DNA from: an uncultured Bacteroidales bacterium
GTDB taxonomy: Bacteria; Bacteroidota; Bacteroidia; Bacteroidales; Paludibacteraceae
Assembly (NCBI GenBank): GCA_900318245.1
Contig: ONJT01000002.1
Coordinates: 112,875 to 176,874 of the forward strand
Length of the DNA: 64,000 nucleotides
Direction of reading: 5' to 3'
Positions 1,833 through 41,974 of this stretch are shown piece by piece. Each line of letters begins with the position of its first letter. The stretch's first letter is position 1. The notes under the pieces were generated by a model that saw only the letters and a program-made list of their open reading frames with translations, had not been told where the DNA came from and did not search any database. Both the position numbers and the translations under genes were made by a program.

Positions 1833-3305
1833 TTATAAAACGACTTCTTCTCCGTGTTCCGGTACCTCTATATTCTTAAATCCCGCTTCGTGTAAGTGCT
1901 CCTTATAGGCCGTCGCGGCTTCTTCGGCGCCGTGCACCACGAACACGCGCTTCACGTCATTAACCTGCAAGCTGCGGGTGAGGTAGTCGATCATCTCCTG
2001 GTAGTCGCCGTGTCCGGAAAAACTCTCTATCTTGGTGATCTGCGCCTTAATACGTCGGTCGAGACCGAAGATGGATATCCACTGCAGTCCCGGTTGTTGG
2101 ATGCGCGCGCCGAGCGTGGTGGGTTCGCAATAGCCGACGATGAGGATCGTGCAGCGCGGGTCGGAGATATGATTCGCCACGTGGTGCTTGATACGTCCTG
2201 CCTCCAACATGCCGCTCGCGGAGATGATGATACACGGTTCTTCTTTGTGGTTCAGCATCTTCGACTCGTTGATGTCGGTGATGTAGCGCAGGGTGTTGAA
2301 GCCGAAGGGATCGGGATCGAAGCGCAAGGTGTCTTGTACCTCGTCGCTCAGTTCGTCCGGGTACATGCGGAAGATCTGGGTGGCGTTCGTACTCATCGGG
2401 CTATCCACGTACACGGGGATGTGCGGCAGGCGCCCGTCGTTATAGAGTTGGTTCAGCACATAGACAATCTCTTGCGTACGGCCGACGGAGAAAGACGGGA
2501 TGAGCAACTGGCCTTTGCGATAGACGCAGGTGTCCTCCACGATGCCGAGCAGCTGCTCTTCGGTAGCTTCCGGCGCGTCGTGCAGGCGATCGCCATACGT
2601 GGACTCGCAAATCAGGTAGTCGCACTGCGGGAAGAGTTGCGGCGACGGCAGGATGTGACTCTTCGGTCGACCTATATCACCCGTGTACGTCAACCTTTTC
2701 CACCGCTTAGCCCCTTTTCCGTCAAGGGTTTCCCCCGTTCCGTCGGGGGACACCGTCTCATATACCTCGAGGCTACAAATCGCGCCTCCGAGCATGTGGC
2801 CGGAGTTGGTGAAGGTCAGCAGCACGTCATCGAACAGCCGGAAGCGGCGGTCGTAGCCGTAAGTGACGAAATGCTTCATCGCGCGGTTGACGTCCTGCTG
2901 GTTGTAGAGCGGTTCGACTTTGTATTTCTTGCCTTTCTCCTTATGGGGATTCTGGCGGTCAATCTTCTTGTTGTAGGTTCGCACATCCTGCTCCTGGATG
3001 AAGGCAGTGTCGGCGAGCATGAGTGCACACAAGTCGCGCGTCGCGGGCGTGCAGTATATATCACCCTTGAAACCCATTTTTACGATATAGGGAATCAGTC
3101 CCGAATGGTCAATATGCGCATGGCTGAGCACTACGCAGTCGAGCGTCGCAGGGTCAAAACCGAGGTCCCTGTTCGCCGCGTCGGTCTCCATTCCTTTACC
3201 TTGATACATGCCGCAGTCGAGCAGTATCGTGTGTCCTGAATCGGTGGTGATGAGGTGCTTACTTCCGGTCACTTCTCGCGTGGCCCCTAAGAATTGAACT
3301 TTCAT
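1833..3305 (-). CDS. Beta-CASP metallo-beta-lactamase-fold ribonuclease (CPSF/Ysh1-like)
   Basis: A 490-residue cytoplasmic MBL-fold protein. The metal motif HxHxDH is H62-A-H64-I-D66-H67. A beta-CASP domain follows (GRTQEIVYVLNQL, IPVYVDSPMS, ISASGMLEAGR), then an RMMBL-type end (SFSGHGDYQEMIDYL, VHGAEEAATAYKEHL). This layout is known from RNA-processing nucleases of the CPSF73/MTH1203 group. Residues about 184-198 (VSPDGTGETLDGKG) sit between two conserved strands, are not typical of the family, and are encoded by a hairpin repeat also found in the CobW-like gene. The RNA target is unknown. Confidence 0.85.
   Translation of the reverse strand: MKVQFLGATREVTGSKHLITTDSGHTILLDCGMYQGKGMETDAANRDLGFDPATLDCVVLSHAHIDHSGLIPYIVKMGFKGDIYCTPATRDLCALMLADTAFIQEQDVRTYNKKIDRQNPHKEKGKKYKVEPLYNQQDVNRAMKHFVTYGYDRRFRLFDDVLLTFTNSGHMLGGAICSLEVYETVSPDGTGETLDGKGAKRWKRLTYTGDIGRPKSHILPSPQLFPQCDYLICESTYGDRLHDAPEATEEQLLGIVEDTCVYRKGQLLIPSFSVGRTQEIVYVLNQLYNDGRLPHIPVYVDSPMSTNATQIFRMYPDELSDEVQDTLRFDPDPFGFNTLRYITDINESKMLNHKEEPCIIISASGMLEAGRIKHHVANHISDPRCTILIVGYCEPTTLGARIQQPGLQWISIFGLDRRIKAQITKIESFSGHGDYQEMIDYLTRSLQVNDVKRVFVVHGAEEAATAYKEHLHEAGFKNIEVPEHGEEVVL
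2711..2754. repeat. In-frame hairpin repeat, family B copy 1
   Basis: A 44-bp block containing the stem TCCCCCG/CGGGGGA with loop TTCCGT. It encodes VSPDGTGETLDGKG on the minus strand inside the beta-CASP RNase. Copy 2 at 41153-41194 differs by one single-base indel and about three substitutions, mainly in the hairpin loop. Confidence 0.85.
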
Positions 3306-17431: not shown

Positions 17432-19128
17432 TAGTCTATCTGCAGGTCGAGTTTCTCTTTTAGTTGGGCAAGCGCAGGGTTCTGCTCTACCATCAGTTTA
17501 TATTTCTCTTCAGCGGTAAAAGCCAGCTGCTCTTGGTTGAACTCCGCCTGCACAAGTTGTATCTCCAGGTGGTCATTATGCAGGGCTGCACGTAACTGCC
17601 GCAAGAGCGTGGGTAAGGCCTTTTTCATTTCCGTCATTTGCCACGGGTTCGGCATCTGGATCTCCGCCGTCAAGTCGTTGACCATTAGCGGCATGTAGTT
17701 CTCTATCAACTGCTTGAGACGCGTTTCCTCCTTGTGCGAGTCAGCCAGACCAACCCACGCGTCTCGGAGTTGGTCAACTGTAAAAGGGCGATTCTGCTCC
17801 TCTTGTTTGGGTTGCTCTGCAGGGGCAGCTGCCGGCTGTGCCGGAGCAGGTTCGGGTTTCTTCGGTCCCAAGCCAATACTTATTTTCGGCATCTTAGGTA
17901 TGGAAGGAGTAGCAGCCTTCGGTTGAGGAGCCGGAGCAGGAGTCGGGGTCGGCCGGCTCGCAGGGGCAGTCTGTGGGGCGGCTTTCGGAGTATTCTGAGT
18001 ACTCGGAATATTCGGAGTACTCGGAATAGTCTGATTCAGACCCAGTTGGCAGAGTTTGACGAGGGCGAGTTCGACGGTCAGGCGCTTGTTACGCGCCGTG
18101 CGGTAGTTGATATCGCAGGTGTTGAGGATATCGAGCGCCATGAAGATCCACATCGGATGGCAGCGCTGTGCCTGTTGACCGTAGCGTGCACGCATCGACT
18201 CACCGGTCTCGAGCAGCGGCAGTGTCTGCGGGTCTTTGCTCACCAGTACATCGCGCAGGTGCTGCGCAAAACCCGTCACAAAATGACCGGCATCGAAGCC
18301 ATGGTTAAGAATGTCGTTGAAGATCAGCAAGGTCTTCGCCACATTATGCTGCAGTGCGCTGTCCACCAACTGGAAATAATAGTCGACGCTGAGCACATTC
18401 AGTACTTCGATCGTGCGCTCGTACGTGATCTCTTTGCCGCAGAACGCGACGAGTTGATCGAAGATCGAGAGCGCGTCGCGCATACCTCCGTCGGCTTTCT
18501 GCGCCACCACATTCAGCGCTTCTTCACTCACCGTGATACCTTCGTTCGCCGCTACTTTCTGCAGATACGCGATGGTATCAGGGATGGTGATGCGGTTGAA
18601 GTCATAGACTTGGCAACGACTGAGAATCGTCGGCAGCACTTTGTGCTTCTCCGTCGTCGCGAGGATGAAGATGGCGTACGAGGGCGGTTCTTCGAGTGTC
18701 TTGAGCAGGGCGTTGAACGCACCGGCAGAGAGCATATGTACCTCGTCGATGATATAAACGGAGTACTTACCAATCTGCGGCGGGATACGCACTTGGTCGA
18801 TGAGGTTTCGGATGTCTTCTACGGAGTTATTCGATGCCGCATCGAGTTCGTGAATGTTAAACGACCGCTGCTCGTTAAAAGCCTTACACGACTCGCATTC
18901 GTTGCATGCATCAAACCCGTTCTGAGGGTTCGAACAGTTGATGGTCTTTGCGAAGATACGCGCGCAGGTGGTTTTTCCCACACCTCGCGGTCCGCAAAAC
19001 AGATACGCATGCGCCAAGTGGTTCGAACGAATGGCGTTCTGCAAAGTCTGCGTCAACGCTTGTTGACCCACCACCGACTCAAAGGTCTGGGGGCGGTACT
19101 TACGCGCCGAAACAATGTAATTTTCCAT
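17431..19128 (-). CDS. dnaX: DNA polymerase III gamma/tau subunit
   Basis: A 565-residue clamp-loader subunit. The AAA+ part has Walker A GPRGVGKT, four zinc-binding Cys (CSNP...CNECESC), Walker B IIDEVHML and sensor SRC. A Pro/Ala-rich linker (PTPTPAPAPQPKAATPS) leads to a short tau-like C-terminal domain. Residues 363-382 (LNQTIPSTPNIPSTQNTPKA), at the collar-linker border, are encoded by the family A 9-bp repeat. It sits between the Sfp-type gene (29-bp overlap) and ygiQ (1-bp overlap), so replication protein supply is tied to an efflux operon. Confidence 0.95.
   Translation of the reverse strand: MENYIVSARKYRPQTFESVVGQQALTQTLQNAIRSNHLAHAYLFCGPRGVGKTTCARIFAKTINCSNPQNGFDACNECESCKAFNEQRSFNIHELDAASNNSVEDIRNLIDQVRIPPQIGKYSVYIIDEVHMLSAGAFNALLKTLEEPPSYAIFILATTEKHKVLPTILSRCQVYDFNRITIPDTIAYLQKVAANEGITVSEEALNVVAQKADGGMRDALSIFDQLVAFCGKEITYERTIEVLNVLSVDYYFQLVDSALQHNVAKTLLIFNDILNHGFDAGHFVTGFAQHLRDVLVSKDPQTLPLLETGESMRARYGQQAQRCHPMWIFMALDILNTCDINYRTARNKRLTVELALVKLCQLGLNQTIPSTPNIPSTQNTPKAAPQTAPASRPTPTPAPAPQPKAATPSIPKMPKISIGLGPKKPEPAPAQPAAAPAEQPKQEEQNRPFTVDQLRDAWVGLADSHKEETRLKQLIENYMPLMVNDLTAEIQMPNPWQMTEMKKALPTLLRQLRAALHNDHLEIQLVQAEFNQEQLAFTAEEKYKLMVEQNPALAQLKEKLDLQID
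17985..18040. repeat. In-frame 9-bp repeat block, family A copy 2
   Basis: Five to six units of the form TCGGAGTAN or TCGGAATAN ending in TCTGATTCA. Read on the minus strand this gives LNQTIPSTPNIPSTQNTP in DnaX. Confidence 0.8.
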
Positions 19129-26762: not shown

Positions 26763-29696
26763 TTAGAGTTGCGCACCTAACATGTTATACGCCTTGCCGT
26801 CGCGGACGATGACTACTTGTCCGTCACGGATTATTTTCTGTACTTTCACACCCTCTGCGGCGGTATTTTCCACTCCCTGCGGGTCAGTGCCTGCGGGCAA
26901 GCCGAAACCACCGCGTCCGTTCGCTTTGCGGATGGTATAGGTGATTCCGTTGTACAAAGCTACCTTATCATTGAACTCTCCACCTTTGAAGAGGATGGGT
27001 TTTTCTCCCTCGGCCTCAGCCATGTAAATAGCGTCCGGTTCGAAGTCCTCTGCCTTCTCCTCGCACACAGCCTGCTGTGCATCGTTCTGTGCATCAGCCG
27101 CCCAAGCTCCAAGCGTGTAGTCGATAGTATAGGTAGCTGCTTCGTCTGCCGTGAGGATGGTCTCCATCTGCTTCTCGTCGGATCCAAGCACGAAGGTTAC
27201 ATTATTGCTTGCCGGCGAAACAACGTTGCCGTCCTTATCCATGGAGTTGAACTCGCCGAATTTCTCAGGCAGTTTGTTCATCGCGCCGAGTGTCCAGCGG
27301 GCGATCTTGTCTTTCTGCTGAGAAGCGTCTTTGGTCATGATTAACTCGCCGTTCGAGTCATCCAGAATCGTATTGAGGAAGACGCATTTCGGAGCATTGT
27401 TCCAACTACGGCCGAGACTCATGACAGGCTTAGTGCCTTGTATATCCTCTGCGTACTTCACGCGGCAGGACTCGAAGACATAGCCCTTGTCGCTCGCATC
27501 CGCGTTGCTGGCTGTGATGGCATTCGCACCGCCGCCGCTCGCATTTCGTTGCTCACCTACGAGGACGTTGTTCTTGAAATAAACGCTTCCGTCGCCGCAG
27601 ATGAAATCGACTGTTCCGTGAATCTCACAGTCCTCGAAATACTTGACTGCACCGACCTTGTTGCTGTAATAGGTGTCTTGGTGAGAGAGCAGTTTGACGT
27701 TCTTGCATATCGTCTTGGTACCCTTATCCTGGAGACTTACGCCGCGTGCACCCGACAAGCCGGCTGCGATGGCTGCGAAATAATCCATGTTATCCCAGAG
27801 CGTCAAGTCCTGCAGATAGGTGTTGGTCGCCGTGATGAGGAGCGTAGCAGTTGTCGAGATACCCTCTTTGCGATAGTCTGGTGTATTCTTGATAATCGTC
27901 CCTTCCATCGACTGTCCGATGATGGAGATATTATTCTTGCTGATGGTGGTCAGGCAGGTTTCGCCGAGGTCATAGATACCGTTCGGCAGGAAGATTTTCT
28001 CGCCTGCAGCCATCGATTCGAGTGCTAAGATCAAACCCGCGCCATCGTTCGGAGCGATCTCATAGTAGCCAAACTCGTTCTTCTTGGGCAGTTCGGCGAT
28101 GTTATATACCTTCAGCGAGTGGATATAATCCGTACCCGTGAAATGGAACGTCAGGGTCGTTGCTTCTCCGGTATATTGGATGCTCTGCAACTCACCATCC
28201 GGCGTCACCTCTTTCTCTGTGGTCAGTTTGCCTACGACGTTTTCTGCGGCGTCACGCAGCTCGGTATCGCCGGTGTGCGAGTATTTGCATACACCTACTA
28301 CGAGCAGTGCATTGCCGGCAACCTTCACGCCGAGCGTGTTGCCATTACCGAAAGTCCAGCCGTGTTGCGCATCTTTGTAACTGCCTCCATTGAAGACGAG
28401 CACTTCGTGATCCTCCGGATAGAACGATTTCTGACGGAAGTCGTAGTTGAAGATCTTGCCCATCGCTGCCTCTTCTATCTCAGTGGCTACCGCATAGAGA
28501 CTGAGGTCTTCGTTAACAGCCGTGCCTTCCGCCACTTTGAGCGCAGTAGGCGTTGTGCCGTCAAACCAGCCGCGGAAAGCGCAGCCGGCAGGAACAGTGA
28601 CGTCGGCTACACCGTATTTATATTTGAGCGCCGAACTGCCTTCGATGATTTCACTACCGATGAGCTTCTTACCGTCCGTGTCATAATATCGCACCTCTAC
28701 TTGCGGCACAAACTCACACGCTTCCGCGAAGAAATACGGGAGATAGCCGTTTACCGTGAAACTCAGTTCTGCCGCTTCCTCCACGTTATAGAGCCAGGTG
28801 ACGAATTTCGTGTAGCCGTTCCCTACTCCGCTGTTGTCGCAGCCGACTTTATTATCAATTGTCGCGAAATCCGCGCCGTTCTTCTTCACAGCGATGTTAT
28901 TGCCGTAGCCGCAACCGCCCAGCGTGAATTTCACGGGGCCATCCACTTGTACGGTGATCGTTCCGCCTTGCAGGCCGTGCTGGGCGTCTTTGAAGACGAG
29001 ATCGCTCAGCGTCACATTAGCCGGTTTTTCTGCAGGCTCCACCCATGTCGGTTCTTCCGAACGGAAGTCCACTTTGAAGTTCGTGAATGTACGTACTTCC
29101 TCTTCTCCGTTGATGGTACCGTTGATCTGTACATCACTCAGGCAGAAGAGTTTGCCGGCATTGAAACCGGATACATAGAAACGTACTGCTACTTCGCGCC
29201 CAGCATCAGCGGTGATATCATGGCGGTGGTGTAGCGCCGGACTTCCAGAGGTATTATTGTCACGCAGCAGATCTCCTTCCGGCACTTGTGTCGGTGTTGA
29301 CTCCACACCGTCGACCACATAACTCCAATGGTAGGAAGCGCCATCCGTCCCTTGCTTAATAGCATCATAGTCGATGCTTGTCAAGGTATAAGTAACGCCT
29401 TTTTTCATCTTAACGCTGTACTCCACCATAACGGCCGGATCCACACCCATCTTGTTAGAGGCAGGATTGAAAGTCGCCATCGTCTCACCAGGGTTAGCGG
29501 CAAAATTATTACGCGAACCTTCAGTCAGCCCCGTGCCTACTTTGCGTTTGTTCTCTTTGATACCATCCGCGGCGTCCGAGGTTACCACGGCATTGTCCGT
29601 ACCGTCCGCCCATTTGATAGTAGCGGGTACATTGTCAAAGGACCAGGCATTGATGCTCAACAAAGCACCTAACGCGAAAAGAATTGTCTTTCTCAT
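26763..29696 (-). CDS. Secreted multidomain pectinesterase (CE8)
   Basis: A 977-residue secreted protein. After the signal peptide (MRKTILFALGALLSINAWS) come beta-sandwich-like regions (about 20-520). A right-handed beta-helix pectin methylesterase domain follows from about residue 560. Active-site regions are SHQDTYYS (Gln, Asp), GTVDFICG (Asp) and LGRSWNN (Arg, Trp). The C-terminal tail KIIRDGQVVIVRDGKAYNMLG is the short sorting/anchor-like tail common on Prevotella-group secreted enzymes. It removes methyl groups from pectin. It overlaps the second CE8 gene by 4 bp. Confidence 0.9.
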   Translation of the reverse strand: MRKTILFALGALLSINAWSFDNVPATIKWADGTDNAVVTSDAADGIKENKRKVGTGLTEGSRNNFAANPGETMATFNPASNKMGVDPAVMVEYSVKMKKGVTYTLTSIDYDAIKQGTDGASYHWSYVVDGVESTPTQVPEGDLLRDNNTSGSPALHHRHDITADAGREVAVRFYVSGFNAGKLFCLSDVQINGTINGEEEVRTFTNFKVDFRSEEPTWVEPAEKPANVTLSDLVFKDAQHGLQGGTITVQVDGPVKFTLGGCGYGNNIAVKKNGADFATIDNKVGCDNSGVGNGYTKFVTWLYNVEEAAELSFTVNGYLPYFFAEACEFVPQVEVRYYDTDGKKLIGSEIIEGSSALKYKYGVADVTVPAGCAFRGWFDGTTPTALKVAEGTAVNEDLSLYAVATEIEEAAMGKIFNYDFRQKSFYPEDHEVLVFNGGSYKDAQHGWTFGNGNTLGVKVAGNALLVVGVCKYSHTGDTELRDAAENVVGKLTTEKEVTPDGELQSIQYTGEATTLTFHFTGTDYIHSLKVYNIAELPKKNEFGYYEIAPNDGAGLILALESMAAGEKIFLPNGIYDLGETCLTTISKNNISIIGQSMEGTIIKNTPDYRKEGISTTATLLITATNTYLQDLTLWDNMDYFAAIAAGLSGARGVSLQDKGTKTICKNVKLLSHQDTYYSNKVGAVKYFEDCEIHGTVDFICGDGSVYFKNNVLVGEQRNASGGGANAITASNADASDKGYVFESCRVKYAEDIQGTKPVMSLGRSWNNAPKCVFLNTILDDSNGELIMTKDASQQKDKIARWTLGAMNKLPEKFGEFNSMDKDGNVVSPASNNVTFVLGSDEKQMETILTADEAATYTIDYTLGAWAADAQNDAQQAVCEEKAEDFEPDAIYMAEAEGEKPILFKGGEFNDKVALYNGITYTIRKANGRGGFGLPAGTDPQGVENTAAEGVKVQKIIRDGQVVIVRDGKAYNMLGAQL

Positions 29697-31195
29697 TGTT
29701 TATAGTTGTTAGTTAAAATGATTTTCGGTATTTCTTGTGCCCACGGACCAAGGACGGCGTCGAGCGTATAGGCCTTCGCCTCTTTAGCCGTGAGAATGGT
29801 GTTCATCGGACGCTCCTGCGTGCGGAAGTGGAAGACCACCTCGTGCTTCTTGGGCGAGATAATCCTTCCCTTCACATCCCGGGTCTTGTATTCCCCGAAG
29901 CGGGCGGGCACGACGCGCATGCCGGGCAAGGTCCAGCGATGGATGTTCTTATTGTCCGTCAGGGCGAAATCGCCGGCACTGTAGTCGAGTGTAGTACGGA
30001 GGAACACGCACTTGGGATAGTTGTTCCAACTGCGTCCGAGGCTCACTACCGGACATTCGCTTTTGATTGTGCAGGACTCGAAGACATAGCCATAGTCCGT
30101 CTCGGCGGCATTGCTCGCGGTAATATAATCCGCACCTTCGTTACCCTGCCCGCGCCGCTCGCAGTACAGCAGGCAGCGGTTGAAATACACGTTGCCGTCG
30201 CCGCAGATAAAATCCACTGTGCCGTGTATCTCGCAGTCCTCGAAATATTTCAGTCCGCCGACTTGGTCGCTATAATACGTGTCCTGGTGCGAGAGCAGGC
30301 GCACGTGCTTGCACACGGTCTTCGTGCCCTGATCCCAGAGACAGACGGCGCGGCCGTTGTTGTTCGCGTAGTAGTCGAGCGCATTCTCTATCGTCAGGTC
30401 GCGCAGCACGGTGCCCTCGACATCGTCGGCGATGCGCAGCGTCGCGGTCTTGCTGATAGACTCCAGCCGGTAGTCGAGCTTGTTACGGATGATCGTGCCC
30501 TCCATCGACTCGCCGATGATGCTTATCCCGTCGGCTTCGATCGCCGTGAGCGTCAGTCCGCCGAGGTCATAGATGCCGTTCGGCAGGTAGATGGTCTTAT
30601 GTCCGCTCGCATTCGCGTCCGCCAGCGCGCGTAAGAAAAAACGGGCGTTCTCCGACAATGTATCGATGTTCACCTCTTGGATATACGCCTGCTCTTCCCC
30701 TTTGTCCGCGTCGCAGGGAGACGGCACAAACACCTCGCCTTCCACAAACTCGATGCGCTGCAGCACGGCTTCCATGTTCAGCAGGCGGGTGATGAAGATA
30801 TTGTTCTGCTCCGCCGTGAGCGGGATACACTGCGTGCCCGACTTGCGGATCTCGCAGGTCACGCCGACGCGCGTCTCTTCCAGCGGTGTGTCCCCACTCC
30901 AGGTATGCACCTGCAGCGAGGCGCGGTTGATGCCGCTGCGCGGACCGAAGGTCAACTTCAGCACACCCGCCACCGGGGCTTTCGTGAACCAGCACCAACC
31001 GGAGCTGTTCAGTTTGATACCTTTCAGGCCGTTCTTCACCCCTTCGGCATCATTGACGATGCCGCCGAACCGCAGTCCGCGATCCGGGTTACTCTGCGGC
31101 GGTGCGTCCGTGTAGTCCCAGAGCAGGTCATTCTCCCCTGCCCACAGGACCACACTCAGCATCACCACCGATAGGATGGTAAAGAAACGTCTCAT
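29693..31195 (-). CDS. Secreted pectinesterase (CE8)
   Basis: A 500-residue protein with a signal peptide (MRRFFTILSVVMLSVVLWA), an approximately 170-residue N-terminal beta-rich region, and a CE8 beta-helix with the same catalytic blocks as its neighbour (SHQDTYYS, GTVDFICG, LGRSWNN). Over the catalytic domain the two proteins are very similar (SIIGESMEGTIIRN against SIIGQSMEGTIIKN), so they arose by tandem duplication. Unlike its neighbour it lacks the sorting-like tail, so the two may act in different places. It starts 3 bp after hpf. Confidence 0.9.
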   Translation of the reverse strand: MRRFFTILSVVMLSVVLWAGENDLLWDYTDAPPQSNPDRGLRFGGIVNDAEGVKNGLKGIKLNSSGWCWFTKAPVAGVLKLTFGPRSGINRASLQVHTWSGDTPLEETRVGVTCEIRKSGTQCIPLTAEQNNIFITRLLNMEAVLQRIEFVEGEVFVPSPCDADKGEEQAYIQEVNIDTLSENARFFLRALADANASGHKTIYLPNGIYDLGGLTLTAIEADGISIIGESMEGTIIRNKLDYRLESISKTATLRIADDVEGTVLRDLTIENALDYYANNNGRAVCLWDQGTKTVCKHVRLLSHQDTYYSDQVGGLKYFEDCEIHGTVDFICGDGNVYFNRCLLYCERRGQGNEGADYITASNAAETDYGYVFESCTIKSECPVVSLGRSWNNYPKCVFLRTTLDYSAGDFALTDNKNIHRWTLPGMRVVPARFGEYKTRDVKGRIISPKKHEVVFHFRTQERPMNTILTAKEAKAYTLDAVLGPWAQEIPKIILTNNYKQ

Positions 31196-38236: not shown

Positions 38237-38488
38237 TCATTTCTTGATACGGATGGTTACAGTGGTGTCTTGGATGTTGAGGTACTCGATACTTTGAGTA
38301 GTCGGAGTATTCGGAGTAGTCGGAGTAGTCTGATTAACATGCGTCACCGGAATACTCGGAGTAGGCAGATCGCCCTTCTCTACCTCAGGCGAATAGTAGG
38401 CATCGTCGATGGGAATGCTATTCGCGGTCGAGCAGGCGGCGAAAAAGGCCGCGCTGATAAGCAGTACTATGTATGGTTTTTTCGACAT
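38237..38488 (-). CDS. Small lipoprotein with repeat-derived tail
   Basis: An 83-residue protein with a lipoprotein signal (MSKKPYIVLLISAAFFAAC) and then a short acidic/polar mature part. Residues 42-66 (TPSIPVTHVNQTTPTTPNTPTTQSI in part) are encoded by the family A 9-bp repeat, nearly a third of the protein. It lies between trpS (33 bp) and the OmpP1-like gene (10 bp). Function unknown. The high share of repeat DNA makes it possible that the gene was built or extended by repeat growth. Confidence 0.68.
   Translation of the reverse strand: MSKKPYIVLLISAAFFAACSTANSIPIDDAYYSPEVEKGDLPTPSIPVTHVNQTTPTTPNTPTTQSIEYLNIQDTTVTIRIKK
38291..38365. repeat. In-frame 9-bp repeat block, family A copy 3
   Basis: Four TCGGAGTAN-type units ending in TCTGATTAACATG, then a further GGAATACTCGGAGTAGG unit pair. 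It encodes NQTTPTTPNTPTTQ on the minus strand. Confidence 0.8.
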
Positions 38489-40756: not shown

Positions 40757-41974
40757 TTACTGCAAACAGTTATCGAGTGCCGTCTTCAGGGCCTGTTTAT
40801 CCAAGTGCTGACCAATGAAGACGAGTTTCTGCATTCTGTCGCCGTATTGGTCGTCCCAGTCTTTGCGCAGTTGGGCATCATCCGCCATGAGTTGCATCAG
40901 CTCCTCTTTTGGCATGGTAGCAAACCACTCACCGGCTTTGCGCAGGTTGAACTGGCGACCGGCCTGCTCGAAGAGATAGCACATGTCGTATTCTTCAGCG
41001 AAATAGCACATTCCTTTGCAACGCAGCACGTTCTTCGGCCAGTGCGCCGCGACGAACTCATCGAAGAGCCCGAGGTCGAAAGGTTTCCGCGCGTAATATA
41101 CATAGGTGTCAATACCGAACTCCGCGAGGTGATCATGCCCCTCATGGTCGTGCCCCTTTCCGTCTAGGGTTTCCCCCGTTTCATCGGGGGACACCTCATC
41201 GTCGTCATCGTCGTCTTCATCATGGTCGTGGTGATGATGCGCGTCTTCGACCTCCTGAATCCAGGTCGCTGAAGTAGCGGTGCGGTCGAAGTCAAAAAGG
41301 TGGGTATTGAGCAGTTTGTCGAGGTCCACGTCGCAGTAGTTGGTCTCGATGATCTCCGCATTCGGCTGGATAGCCCGGATGATGGATTTGATATGTTCCA
41401 ACTCCTCGGGAGCCACTTCTGCAGCCTTGTTGAGCAGGATGAGGTTGCAGAACTCGATTTGCTCGATGACGAGTGCCTCGAGGTCTTCCTCTTTAGGCAC
41501 ATAGTGCGCCAAAGCATCGCCCCCATTGAACTCATCCCTCAGACGCAGCGCGTCCACTACGGCGCAGATACAGTCCAACACAGGCAGCCCGTCTTGGGCA
41601 AACTGCGGCACCATTTCCGCATAACTGCAAAGGGTCTGCGCGATCGGTGCGGGTTCGCAAATACCGGAAGCCTCGATGACGATGTAGTCATAGGCTTTTT
41701 GTGCGGCGAGGTCGTGCAGTTGCGAAACAAGATCCATTTTCAGCGAGCAGCATATACAGCCGTTTTGGAGGGCTACGAGGCTGTCATCGCTCTGGCTTAC
41801 CACCCCGCCCTGTTGGATCAACGAAGCATCGATATTCACTTCGCCAATATCATTGACAATAACCGCAAAACGGATGCCTTTCGTATTCGTCAGAATGCGG
41901 TTCAAAAGTGTGGTTTTGCCGCTCCCGAGATAACCCGTGAGCAGCAAAACCGGTATTTTATTAATCGTTAACAT
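40757..41974 (-). CDS. CobW/ZNG1-family GTPase metallochaperone
   Basis: A 405-residue G3E GTPase: Walker A GYLGSGKTTLLN, the metal-binding CICC motif in NGCICCSL, Walker B/ASGICEPAP, and GTP-specificity NKAAE. A His/Asp-rich linker (about 243-282, HHHHDHDEDDDDDDE and HDHEGHDH) suggests zinc or cobalt storage. The linker is interrupted at 261-274 by VSPDETGETLDGKG from the family B hairpin repeat. A CobW_C domain follows (FDEFVAAHWPKNVLRCKGMCYF). It overlaps the GT117 gene by 14 bp. Confidence 0.9.
   Translation of the reverse strand: MLTINKIPVLLLTGYLGSGKTTLLNRILTNTKGIRFAVIVNDIGEVNIDASLIQQGGVVSQSDDSLVALQNGCICCSLKMDLVSQLHDLAAQKAYDYIVIEASGICEPAPIAQTLCSYAEMVPQFAQDGLPVLDCICAVVDALRLRDEFNGGDALAHYVPKEEDLEALVIEQIEFCNLILLNKAAEVAPEELEHIKSIIRAIQPNAEIIETNYCDVDLDKLLNTHLFDFDRTATSATWIQEVEDAHHHHDHDEDDDDDDEVSPDETGETLDGKGHDHEGHDHLAEFGIDTYVYYARKPFDLGLFDEFVAAHWPKNVLRCKGMCYFAEEYDMCYLFEQAGRQFNLRKAGEWFATMPKEELMQLMADDAQLRKDWDDQYGDRMQKLVFIGQHLDKQALKTALDNCLQ
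41153..41194. repeat. In-frame hairpin repeat, family B copy 2
   Basis: Same element as 2711-2754: CCCCTTTCCGTC, AGGGTTT, and the stem TCCCCCG-TTTCAT-CGGGGGA, then CACC. It encodes VSPDETGETLDGKG. Confidence 0.85.

Follow-up and report, generated by a model that had tools for sequence, protein, structure and literature searches.

A genus-restricted, REP-like palindromic repeat family with copies in frame inside unrelated protein genes of Bacteroidales

The window analysed here, a stretch of 64,000 nucleotides from an uncultured Bacteroidales bacterium, contains two genes, encoding a beta-CASP RNase and a CobW GTPase, that share an almost identical hairpin-forming segment, raising the question of how the same short sequence came to lie inside two different proteins. 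The features concerned are given below; the E-values refer to a covariance model (R1) that was built from an alignment containing both copies.

1833-3305, minus strand: host gene 1, beta-CASP / metallo-beta-lactamase RNase, 490 aa (Pfam PF10996, PF07521 and PF00753; relative of PDB 2dkf)
2712-2756, minus strand: element copy 1 (45 nt, model R1), encoding TVSPDGTGETLDGKG; covariance-model match E 1.4e-16
2727-2754, minus strand: hairpin of copy 1, 2727-2737 with 2744-2754, an 11-position stem with one mismatch and a 6-nt loop
2731-2737/2744-2750, minus strand: inner 7 bp of copy 1, TCCCCCG/CGGGGGA
40757-41974, minus strand: host gene 2, CobW/ZigA-type GTPase, 405 aa (Pfam PF02492, residues 8-209; PF07683, residues 288-404)
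41153-41197, minus strand: element copy 2 (45 nt), encoding EVSPDETGETLDGKG; covariance-model match E 3.6e-20
41168-41195, minus strand: hairpin of copy 2, 41168-41178 with 41185-41195
41172-41178/41185-41191, minus strand: inner 7 bp of copy 2, TCCCCCG/CGGGGGA

The assignment of both hosts in a preliminary description of this DNA agrees with the Pfam matches, which place the two proteins in unrelated families and thereby rule out homology of the hosts as the explanation for the shared element; the best NCBIfam match of the second protein is ZigA, below the cut-off of that model. TVSPDGTGETLDGKG lies at about residue 184 of the RNase, and EVSPDETGETLDGKG at about residue 260 of the CobW-domain protein, in the His/Asp-rich linker that joins the GTPase domain to the C-terminal domain. 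Both copies are on the minus strand and in a common frame of the two genes, as had been described. Alignment of 2712-2754 with 41153-41195 gave 39 identical bases of 43 without a gap and an ungapped score of 31, compared to a maximum of 20 across 40 dinucleotide shuffles of the window. A 1-bp indel reported earlier proved to be merely an alternative alignment (AAAAGGG vs AAAGGGG), the 45-nt alignment being gap-free, and the statement that the differences gather in the hairpin loop is only half right: the 43 bp contain four differences, two in the loop and two outside it. Chance, shared host ancestry, contamination or an assembly error as the source of the pair has a practically negligible probability: the genomes searched are mostly drafts, which speaks for artefacts, but the shuffles rule out chance, the hosts are unrelated and the same element recurs across many genomes, among them public records that bear several different titles.

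The window also holds other repeats. A pair of 173 nt at 27574 and 30180 reaches 59 with the same score, which is stronger than the element pair; it falls in direct repeats about 2.6 kb apart (27465-27746 and 27962-28000 against 30071-30352 and 30559-30597) within two adjacent large minus-strand ORFs, and the repeated segments are probably paralogous. A GTGCAAAGGTAC-type motif occurs in seven copies (8940, 10770, 13743, 31515, 36224, 45101 and 63419); on the opposite strand it looks like the Bacteroidetes promoter element.

The 7-bp stem noted earlier is present in both window copies and is part of a longer one, GGTTTCCCCCG/CGGGGGACACC, with 11 positions and one mismatch as read from the sequence. 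Minimum-energy folding of the 45-nt copies formed the inner 7 bp in both cases, with -19.6 kcal/mol (z -1.4) for copy 1 and -19.3 kcal/mol (z -2.0) for copy 2. Throughout the family, the stem arms GGTTGTCCCCG and CGGGGAAAACC enclose a loop that mostly measures 6 nt, with fewer nucleotides in many of the diverged copies; the second arm is followed by a spacer that varies and, in the tail, by a conserved box resembling GGAAAGGGG. As matched, the element is about 37-50 nt long, with an imperfect hairpin of about 10 bp around one mismatch. Among 12 distinct rows, the stem pair 8-25 is U-A in seven and C-G in five, five of the ten pairs are invariant, and one pair is unpaired in five rows because the mismatch shifts. 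The covariation score was reached by none of 500 shuffles, and the number of pairs changed on both sides is one, which 385 of 500 shuffles reach, making the covariation evidence for this stem thin. A second hairpin, CCCT/AGGG, was considered and dropped, with 87.5% of cells paired but 295 of 500 shuffles reaching as much.

These folds bear on the possibility that the element is an RNA hairpin acting in the mRNA, through stability, translation pausing or the context of ribosome binding, with the peptide as a by-product. The folding energies of six copies (-13.4 to -20.1 kcal/mol), the single compensatory pair with both sides changed in 5/12 distinct rows, and the position of one copy at the 3' end of a V-ATPase subunit D gene, just before the start of the next gene, are consistent with such a role. 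However, REP DNA is expected to show the same hairpin, the folding z values, from -1.2 to -2.6, are modest, some copies are antisense or intergenic, and the identified hosts have no evident common operon or pathway. Six loci compared with Rfam 15 gave three matches with E-values up to 1, all of them outside the element, and a known structured RNA was rejected on this basis. Taken with these points, we regard a primary function in the mRNA as very unlikely.

The expectation that further copies exist in the genome was borne out, depending on the stringency of the search. A strict 42-mer with up to three mismatches occurs at two places in the own genome, and model R1, a 45-position covariance model made from 16 copies, gives five matches at E<=1.5e-5, namely in the CobW and RNase genes, in ValS (C27:9881), antisense in UvrA (C27:11152) and at C21:51618, outside the five longest ORFs of its locus. 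Of the 178 genomes that represent the genus, 15 contain a 37-base pattern (three mismatches allowed), each in at most two places, and the other 163 have none, while model R1 matched 55 at E<=1e-5 and 118 at E<=0.1. Among 180 genomes from the other genera of this bacterial family, none matched at E<=1e-5 (best 1.9e-4); 39 of them had a match at E<=0.1, and these weak matches are taken as noise. An exact-pattern scan of named genomes gave eight stretches, all in records titled Bacteroidales or Paludibacteraceae, several of the matching public records being rumen or gut samples judging by their titles. The family is therefore restricted to one genus of Bacteroidales among the genomes searched, and several matching record titles point to Paludibacteraceae. 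A viral origin was rejected after a single pattern scan of viral contigs, which found no element.

At E<=0.1, individual genomes contain up to about twenty matches (19 in G182, 18 in G187, 18 in G122 and 22 in G056) on different contigs, so that the element, like REPs, is a short imperfect palindrome recurring at unlinked sites of one genome. G182, G187 and G122 have species-specific sets of near-identical copies, an argument for amplification. Copies between genes often lie within larger repeats, such as ACCAATTACC arrays in G182 and a TGCAAAG-flanked repeat in G187. In G122 (L045 and L058), two copies are embedded in a repeat of 375 bp and 93% identity that has no coding flank and is possibly a larger mobile unit.

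If the two peptides were native to their hosts, orthologues should carry them. The element itself was absent at the corresponding site from all 29 RNase orthologue loci, all of the same genus, and from all 29 CobW orthologue loci (28 of the same genus, L041 of another family), and the same residues at the same site were not found in distant genera, represented here by L041 and the RNase TTHA0252. At the RNase site, L223, L231, L235 and L236 have EEEEGKKRWK, EEGRWK or a similar short turn; the only RNase locus with the same insert, L080 (G132), was found by model R1. Alignment of the RNase with TTHA0252 (PDB 2dkf) places the insert in a short stretch between SAFV and TLVYSGDLG, a position that is probably a surface turn. 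The CobW orthologues mostly have a His/Asp-rich linker, with a diverged relative of the element in G006 (L024) and an unrelated repeat in G015 (L026), and two loci found by pattern, L054 (G172) and L057 (G216), contain the element in this linker. A conserved peptide native to the hosts was thus rejected, given orthologues without the element for RNase, CobW and, as described below, ValS.

The flanks of 124 copies among the matches listed, including four weak ones from the own genome (L099-L102), were then examined; the list was longer than this set, to which the second copy of G210, for example, does not belong. This set derives from 48 + 91 matches by removal of five same-place repeats (L045, L098:230, L097:2772, L113 and L150:1501) and ten reverse-strand self-matches of the palindrome. 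An automatic codon-usage score (>=12) assigned coding flanks to 51 copies, of which 39 are in sense phase 0, four in sense phase 2, three in sense phase 1 and five antisense; the other 73 have no coding flank at the score used, which misses some genes. The automatic frames were in error for L077, L069 and L078, which are canonical by hand, L081, L133, L154 and L157 were scored as sense phase 0 although no convincing gene surrounds the element, and phase 0 was also assigned to L185, which encodes another peptide.

Curation by hand together with Pfam and NCBIfam provided 19 host gene families, as a rule with one locus per family compared to the databases and the rest assigned by like sequence; six of the 51 coding-flank copies (L081, L100, L133, L134, L154 and L157) were left out for want of a convincing gene, and the least sure members are the beta-helix protein (L160), the ORF without a family (L056) and the bPH_5 protein end. 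Fourteen families contain the element in the canonical sense frame, encoding EVVPDETGKTLDGKG: the RNase, CobW, V-ATPase D, BatD, TopB, an MFS transporter, YceD, topoisomerase IV/gyrase A, ValS, UvrB, TrmO, an exonuclease, the beta-helix protein and the 188-aa ORF of L056. Five have it in another frame: an RlmI-like methyltransferase, a DegT aminotransferase (with two element places in L191), a VapE-like protein, the bPH_5 protein end, and UvrA, where it is antisense in L098 of the own genome and in L117. The topoisomerase copies lie in the C-terminal tail, in L079 and nine more loci, two of them with tandem copies; this family is based on an NCBIfam match of L079 below the cut-off, L079 and L155 being without a Pfam match, and on like sequence for the other nine. 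In V-ATPase subunit D (L068:1501-1557), most of the C-terminal end consists of the element, in five species among the loci retrieved, and the stop codon overlaps with the start (1554) of the following gene, which encodes a V_ATPase_I family subunit. In UvrB, the insert comes with an extra ITN-type repeat and interrupts the alignment to PDB 2fdc between residues 387 and 389; in TrmO, the insert interrupts the alignment to 1xqb at residue 66.

The frame encoding EVVPDETGKTLDGKG thus prevails and is not exclusive. With a null of 1/3 for open frames, 14 of 19 families in the canonical frame has a P of 3.8e-4, a bias that is partly ascertained because 15 of the 16 copies on which R1 was trained are canonical. 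Element lengths divisible by three were found for 15 of 19 selected coding copies vs 35 of 73 copies without coding flanks (Fisher p 0.02). In the 45-nt consensus, sense frame 0 is open and hydrophilic and the other two sense frames contain stops, while two antisense frames are open and less hydrophilic than sense frame 0.

Such a bias could also arise if the 14-15 residue peptide were a selected protein module, for binding, modification or as a linker, copied for its usefulness. The predominance of one sense frame among coding-flank copies and among curated families, and the hydrophilic, linker-like character of the peptide, agree with this idea, but several observations disagree. Comparison of 45-nt copies at nine coding sites gave 16, 13 and 9 consensus mismatches of 135 at codon positions 1, 2 and 3, so that third positions show the same degree of conservation as the other two, and there is no excess of synonymous changes (10 synonymous vs 24 non-synonymous codon changes, compared to 34 to 101 among random changes, P 0.56). 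The RlmI-like, DegT and VapE-like genes use other frames, UvrA has the element antisense, and 73/124 copies are without a coding flank. There is accordingly no sign at these nine sites, a sample of little power, that the peptide itself is held by selection, and we consider a selected module highly improbable. Selection against stops and greasy inserts may be enough to explain the frame bias, which would then reflect purifying selection, with a peptide that is presumably neutral.

For ValS, comparison of two sister species, G006 (plain, L286) and G208 (carrier, L159), revealed identical flanks around 30 nt in the former and 42 nt in the latter, the 42 nt being the element. Of the hallmarks of MITEs, terminal inverted repeats and target-site duplication, no duplicated target was seen at this one site, and the only inverted repeat observed is the hairpin itself. 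The junctions, at which TG and GG are shared, are the same in six of six carriers by eye; a script found four of the six, each of 42 nt. The earlier notion that the element is tolerated inside proteins is therefore to be modified, at least in ValS, where it replaces part of a loop and is not a simple addition. In a quick gene tree made from 35 rows and 699 columns with the insert columns excluded, in which 12 of 32 inner branches are unresolved, six changes are needed to account for the six carriers, a single clade of carriers is rejected (p-AU 7.5e-6), and two pairs with supports of 99 and 97 each couple a carrier with a non-carrier. The element may have entered this loop several times, or recombination may have passed the loop on.

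The same loops are also occupied by other repeats. By eye, the ValS loop contains other tandem or palindromic repeats in L284, L289, L291, L296, L298 and L302, and the RNase loop (residues ~184-200 in the window gene) contains unrelated repeats in L224, L225/L228, L227, L229, L230, L234 and L239, one example being TPNPSLKGGE from a CCCCTCCCTAAAAGGAGGGGAG palindrome. A second repeat type in the window, (TTCGGAGTA)n-like with a 9-base period, was observed at 1467-1515, 17971-18037, 78-126 and 38279-38336. It lies in frame in genes that are unrelated to each other, namely those of a HAD hydrolase (INQNSPNTPSTPNN) and DnaX (LNQTIPSTPNIPSTQNTPKA), and also within a short Ala_racemase_N-like stretch; the fourth place is in an ORF without a Pfam match.

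These observations raise the alternative that microhomology or template switching exchanges loop DNA for repeat DNA with no transposase involved, the element being one of several repeat types so used. The exchange of 30 nt for 42 nt in ValS with TG and GG shared at the junctions, the unrelated palindromic or tandem repeats in the RNase, CobW and ValS loops of other species, and the (TTCGGAGTA)n-type repeat in frame in several window genes all point in this direction. Against it, the palindrome is conserved between unlinked sites and amplified in a species-specific manner, for which slippage alone is insufficient, and we regard the alternative as possible though doubtful. A wider form of the idea is a standing process of loop swapping in this genus, by which conserved and often essential proteins have loops replaced repeatedly, precisely and in frame by DNA of several unrelated repeat families; this is a speculation that we think rather unlikely. 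Should it hold, the same loops would be struck in many species, repeat DNA would be a reservoir of new surface segments with the palindrome as its best-defined currency, and short matches at the loop edges may guide the choice of site.

What might move the element was approached through Y1 transposases, including RAYT-like proteins. Pfam PF01797 had no match in the own genome at E<=0.001. A RAYT-like Y1 protein (L220:703-2025 and relatives), of about 350-440 aa and barely matching Pfam Y1_Tnp, is encoded in 128 of 178 genus genomes, with six matches in the own genome (best E 1.5e-18). The element was then sought near 30 PF01797 loci, with no match at E<=1, and near 30 RAYT-like loci, with nothing credible (best E 0.22); these 60 loci, a subset of those in the genus, correspond to 54 distinct genes, six being in both searches. 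A RAYT/Y1 gene acting in cis was thus rejected for the loci scanned. Across genomes, a RAYT-like match occurs in 45 of 55 element-bearing genomes (model R1, E<=1e-5) vs 83 of 123 others (Fisher p 0.07), a co-occurrence that is not convincing.

Overall, we consider it highly probable that the two window copies belong to a genus-restricted REP/RPE-like palindromic family that has spread through the genomes of the genus and is tolerated in protein loops. This retains most of the preliminary reading of a mobile REP-like element: the copies are dispersed in unrelated genes and between genes, and orthologues are without them, while mobility as the cause is something we infer from the dispersed, species-specific and polyphyletic copies. 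The element would spread through the genomes of one genus, with copies landing between and inside genes. Those inside genes would persist mainly where the frame stays open, where it gives the hydrophilic, turn-rich (E/T)V(V/S)P..(T)G(E/K)TLDGKG, and where the site is an indel-tolerant loop, linker or terminus. The mover would most likely be either a HUH/Y1 (RAYT-like) transposase acting in trans on the single-stranded DNA hairpin, or microhomology-guided copying into loops followed by interspecies spread through homologous recombination. Among the points against this explanation are the outcome at the 60 Y1/RAYT-like loci scanned, none of which has a credible copy nearby, the constant ValS junctions, which are not predicted by free insertion, and the scarcity of strict copies, at most two per genome and none in most of the 178.

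Palindromic repeats that invade proteins in frame are known best from Rickettsia. The Rickettsia palindromic elements (RPEs) are palindromic repeats scattered over the genome, in frame within protein genes that are unrelated to each other and also elsewhere (PMC10969869; PMC3733652), of about 150 bp (PMC10969869), with RPE-4 and RPE-6 counted as REP-sized (PMC3733652). By these descriptions, the present element resembles RPEs in lying in frame inside unrelated conserved genes, and differs in its length of about 37-50 nt, in its Bacteroidales host and confinement to one genus in the genomes searched, and in replacing loops that it shares with unrelated repeats.

GTAG- and CGTC-tagged REPs, some of them inside ORFs, have been described by Di Nocera et al. 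2013 (PMC3733652). The CGTC type comprises short hairpins with one tagged end and without a dedicated transposase in five phyla including Bacteroidetes, and tagged REPs hit uvrB in R. conorii and uvrA in other species (PMC3733652); uvrA and uvrB are also hosts of our element. The CGTC type is described as having CGTC (or TGTC/CCTC) unpaired at one stem end, a CCA-like tail, a stem of 8-9 bp starting with A-T and a loop of 4-5 nt (PMC3733652). By that definition the element is different: its CGTC is three bases off the stem or missing in many variants, and its stem has about 10 pairs around a mismatch with G-C ends and no CCA tail. It is like GTAG REPs and REPINs in its REP-like hairpin and in the frequency of RAYT-like Y1 proteins in its genus; GTAG, however, occurs on the complementary strand in some variants only (e.g. 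L172 and L173), and the arrangement of REPtrons, a RAYT gene flanked by the repeat, was not seen at the 54 distinct genes. The enterobacterial RU-1 to RU-3, small mobile sequences of 103-168 bp carrying ORFs (PMC2759123), are likewise small non-autonomous repeats that can lie inside genes and add peptide, and the element is less than half their length.

In the open-licence literature, judged by titles and the beginnings of abstracts, we found no treatment of such an element in this bacterial group. The element is new and its kind ordinary, a genus-restricted REP/RPE-like palindrome that turns into loop sequence of proteins. What is unusual is that several repeat types share the same loops and use them recurrently. 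If general, such use would be a route from non-coding repeat DNA to coding sequence. The naturally occurring insertions in UvrA, UvrB, ValS, topoisomerases and a V-ATPase subunit mark sites that tolerate extra residues. Next to Rickettsia, a second lineage in Bacteroidales, with a shorter element, close relatives whose corresponding site is element-free and carriers that form no clade, makes the process testable by comparison.
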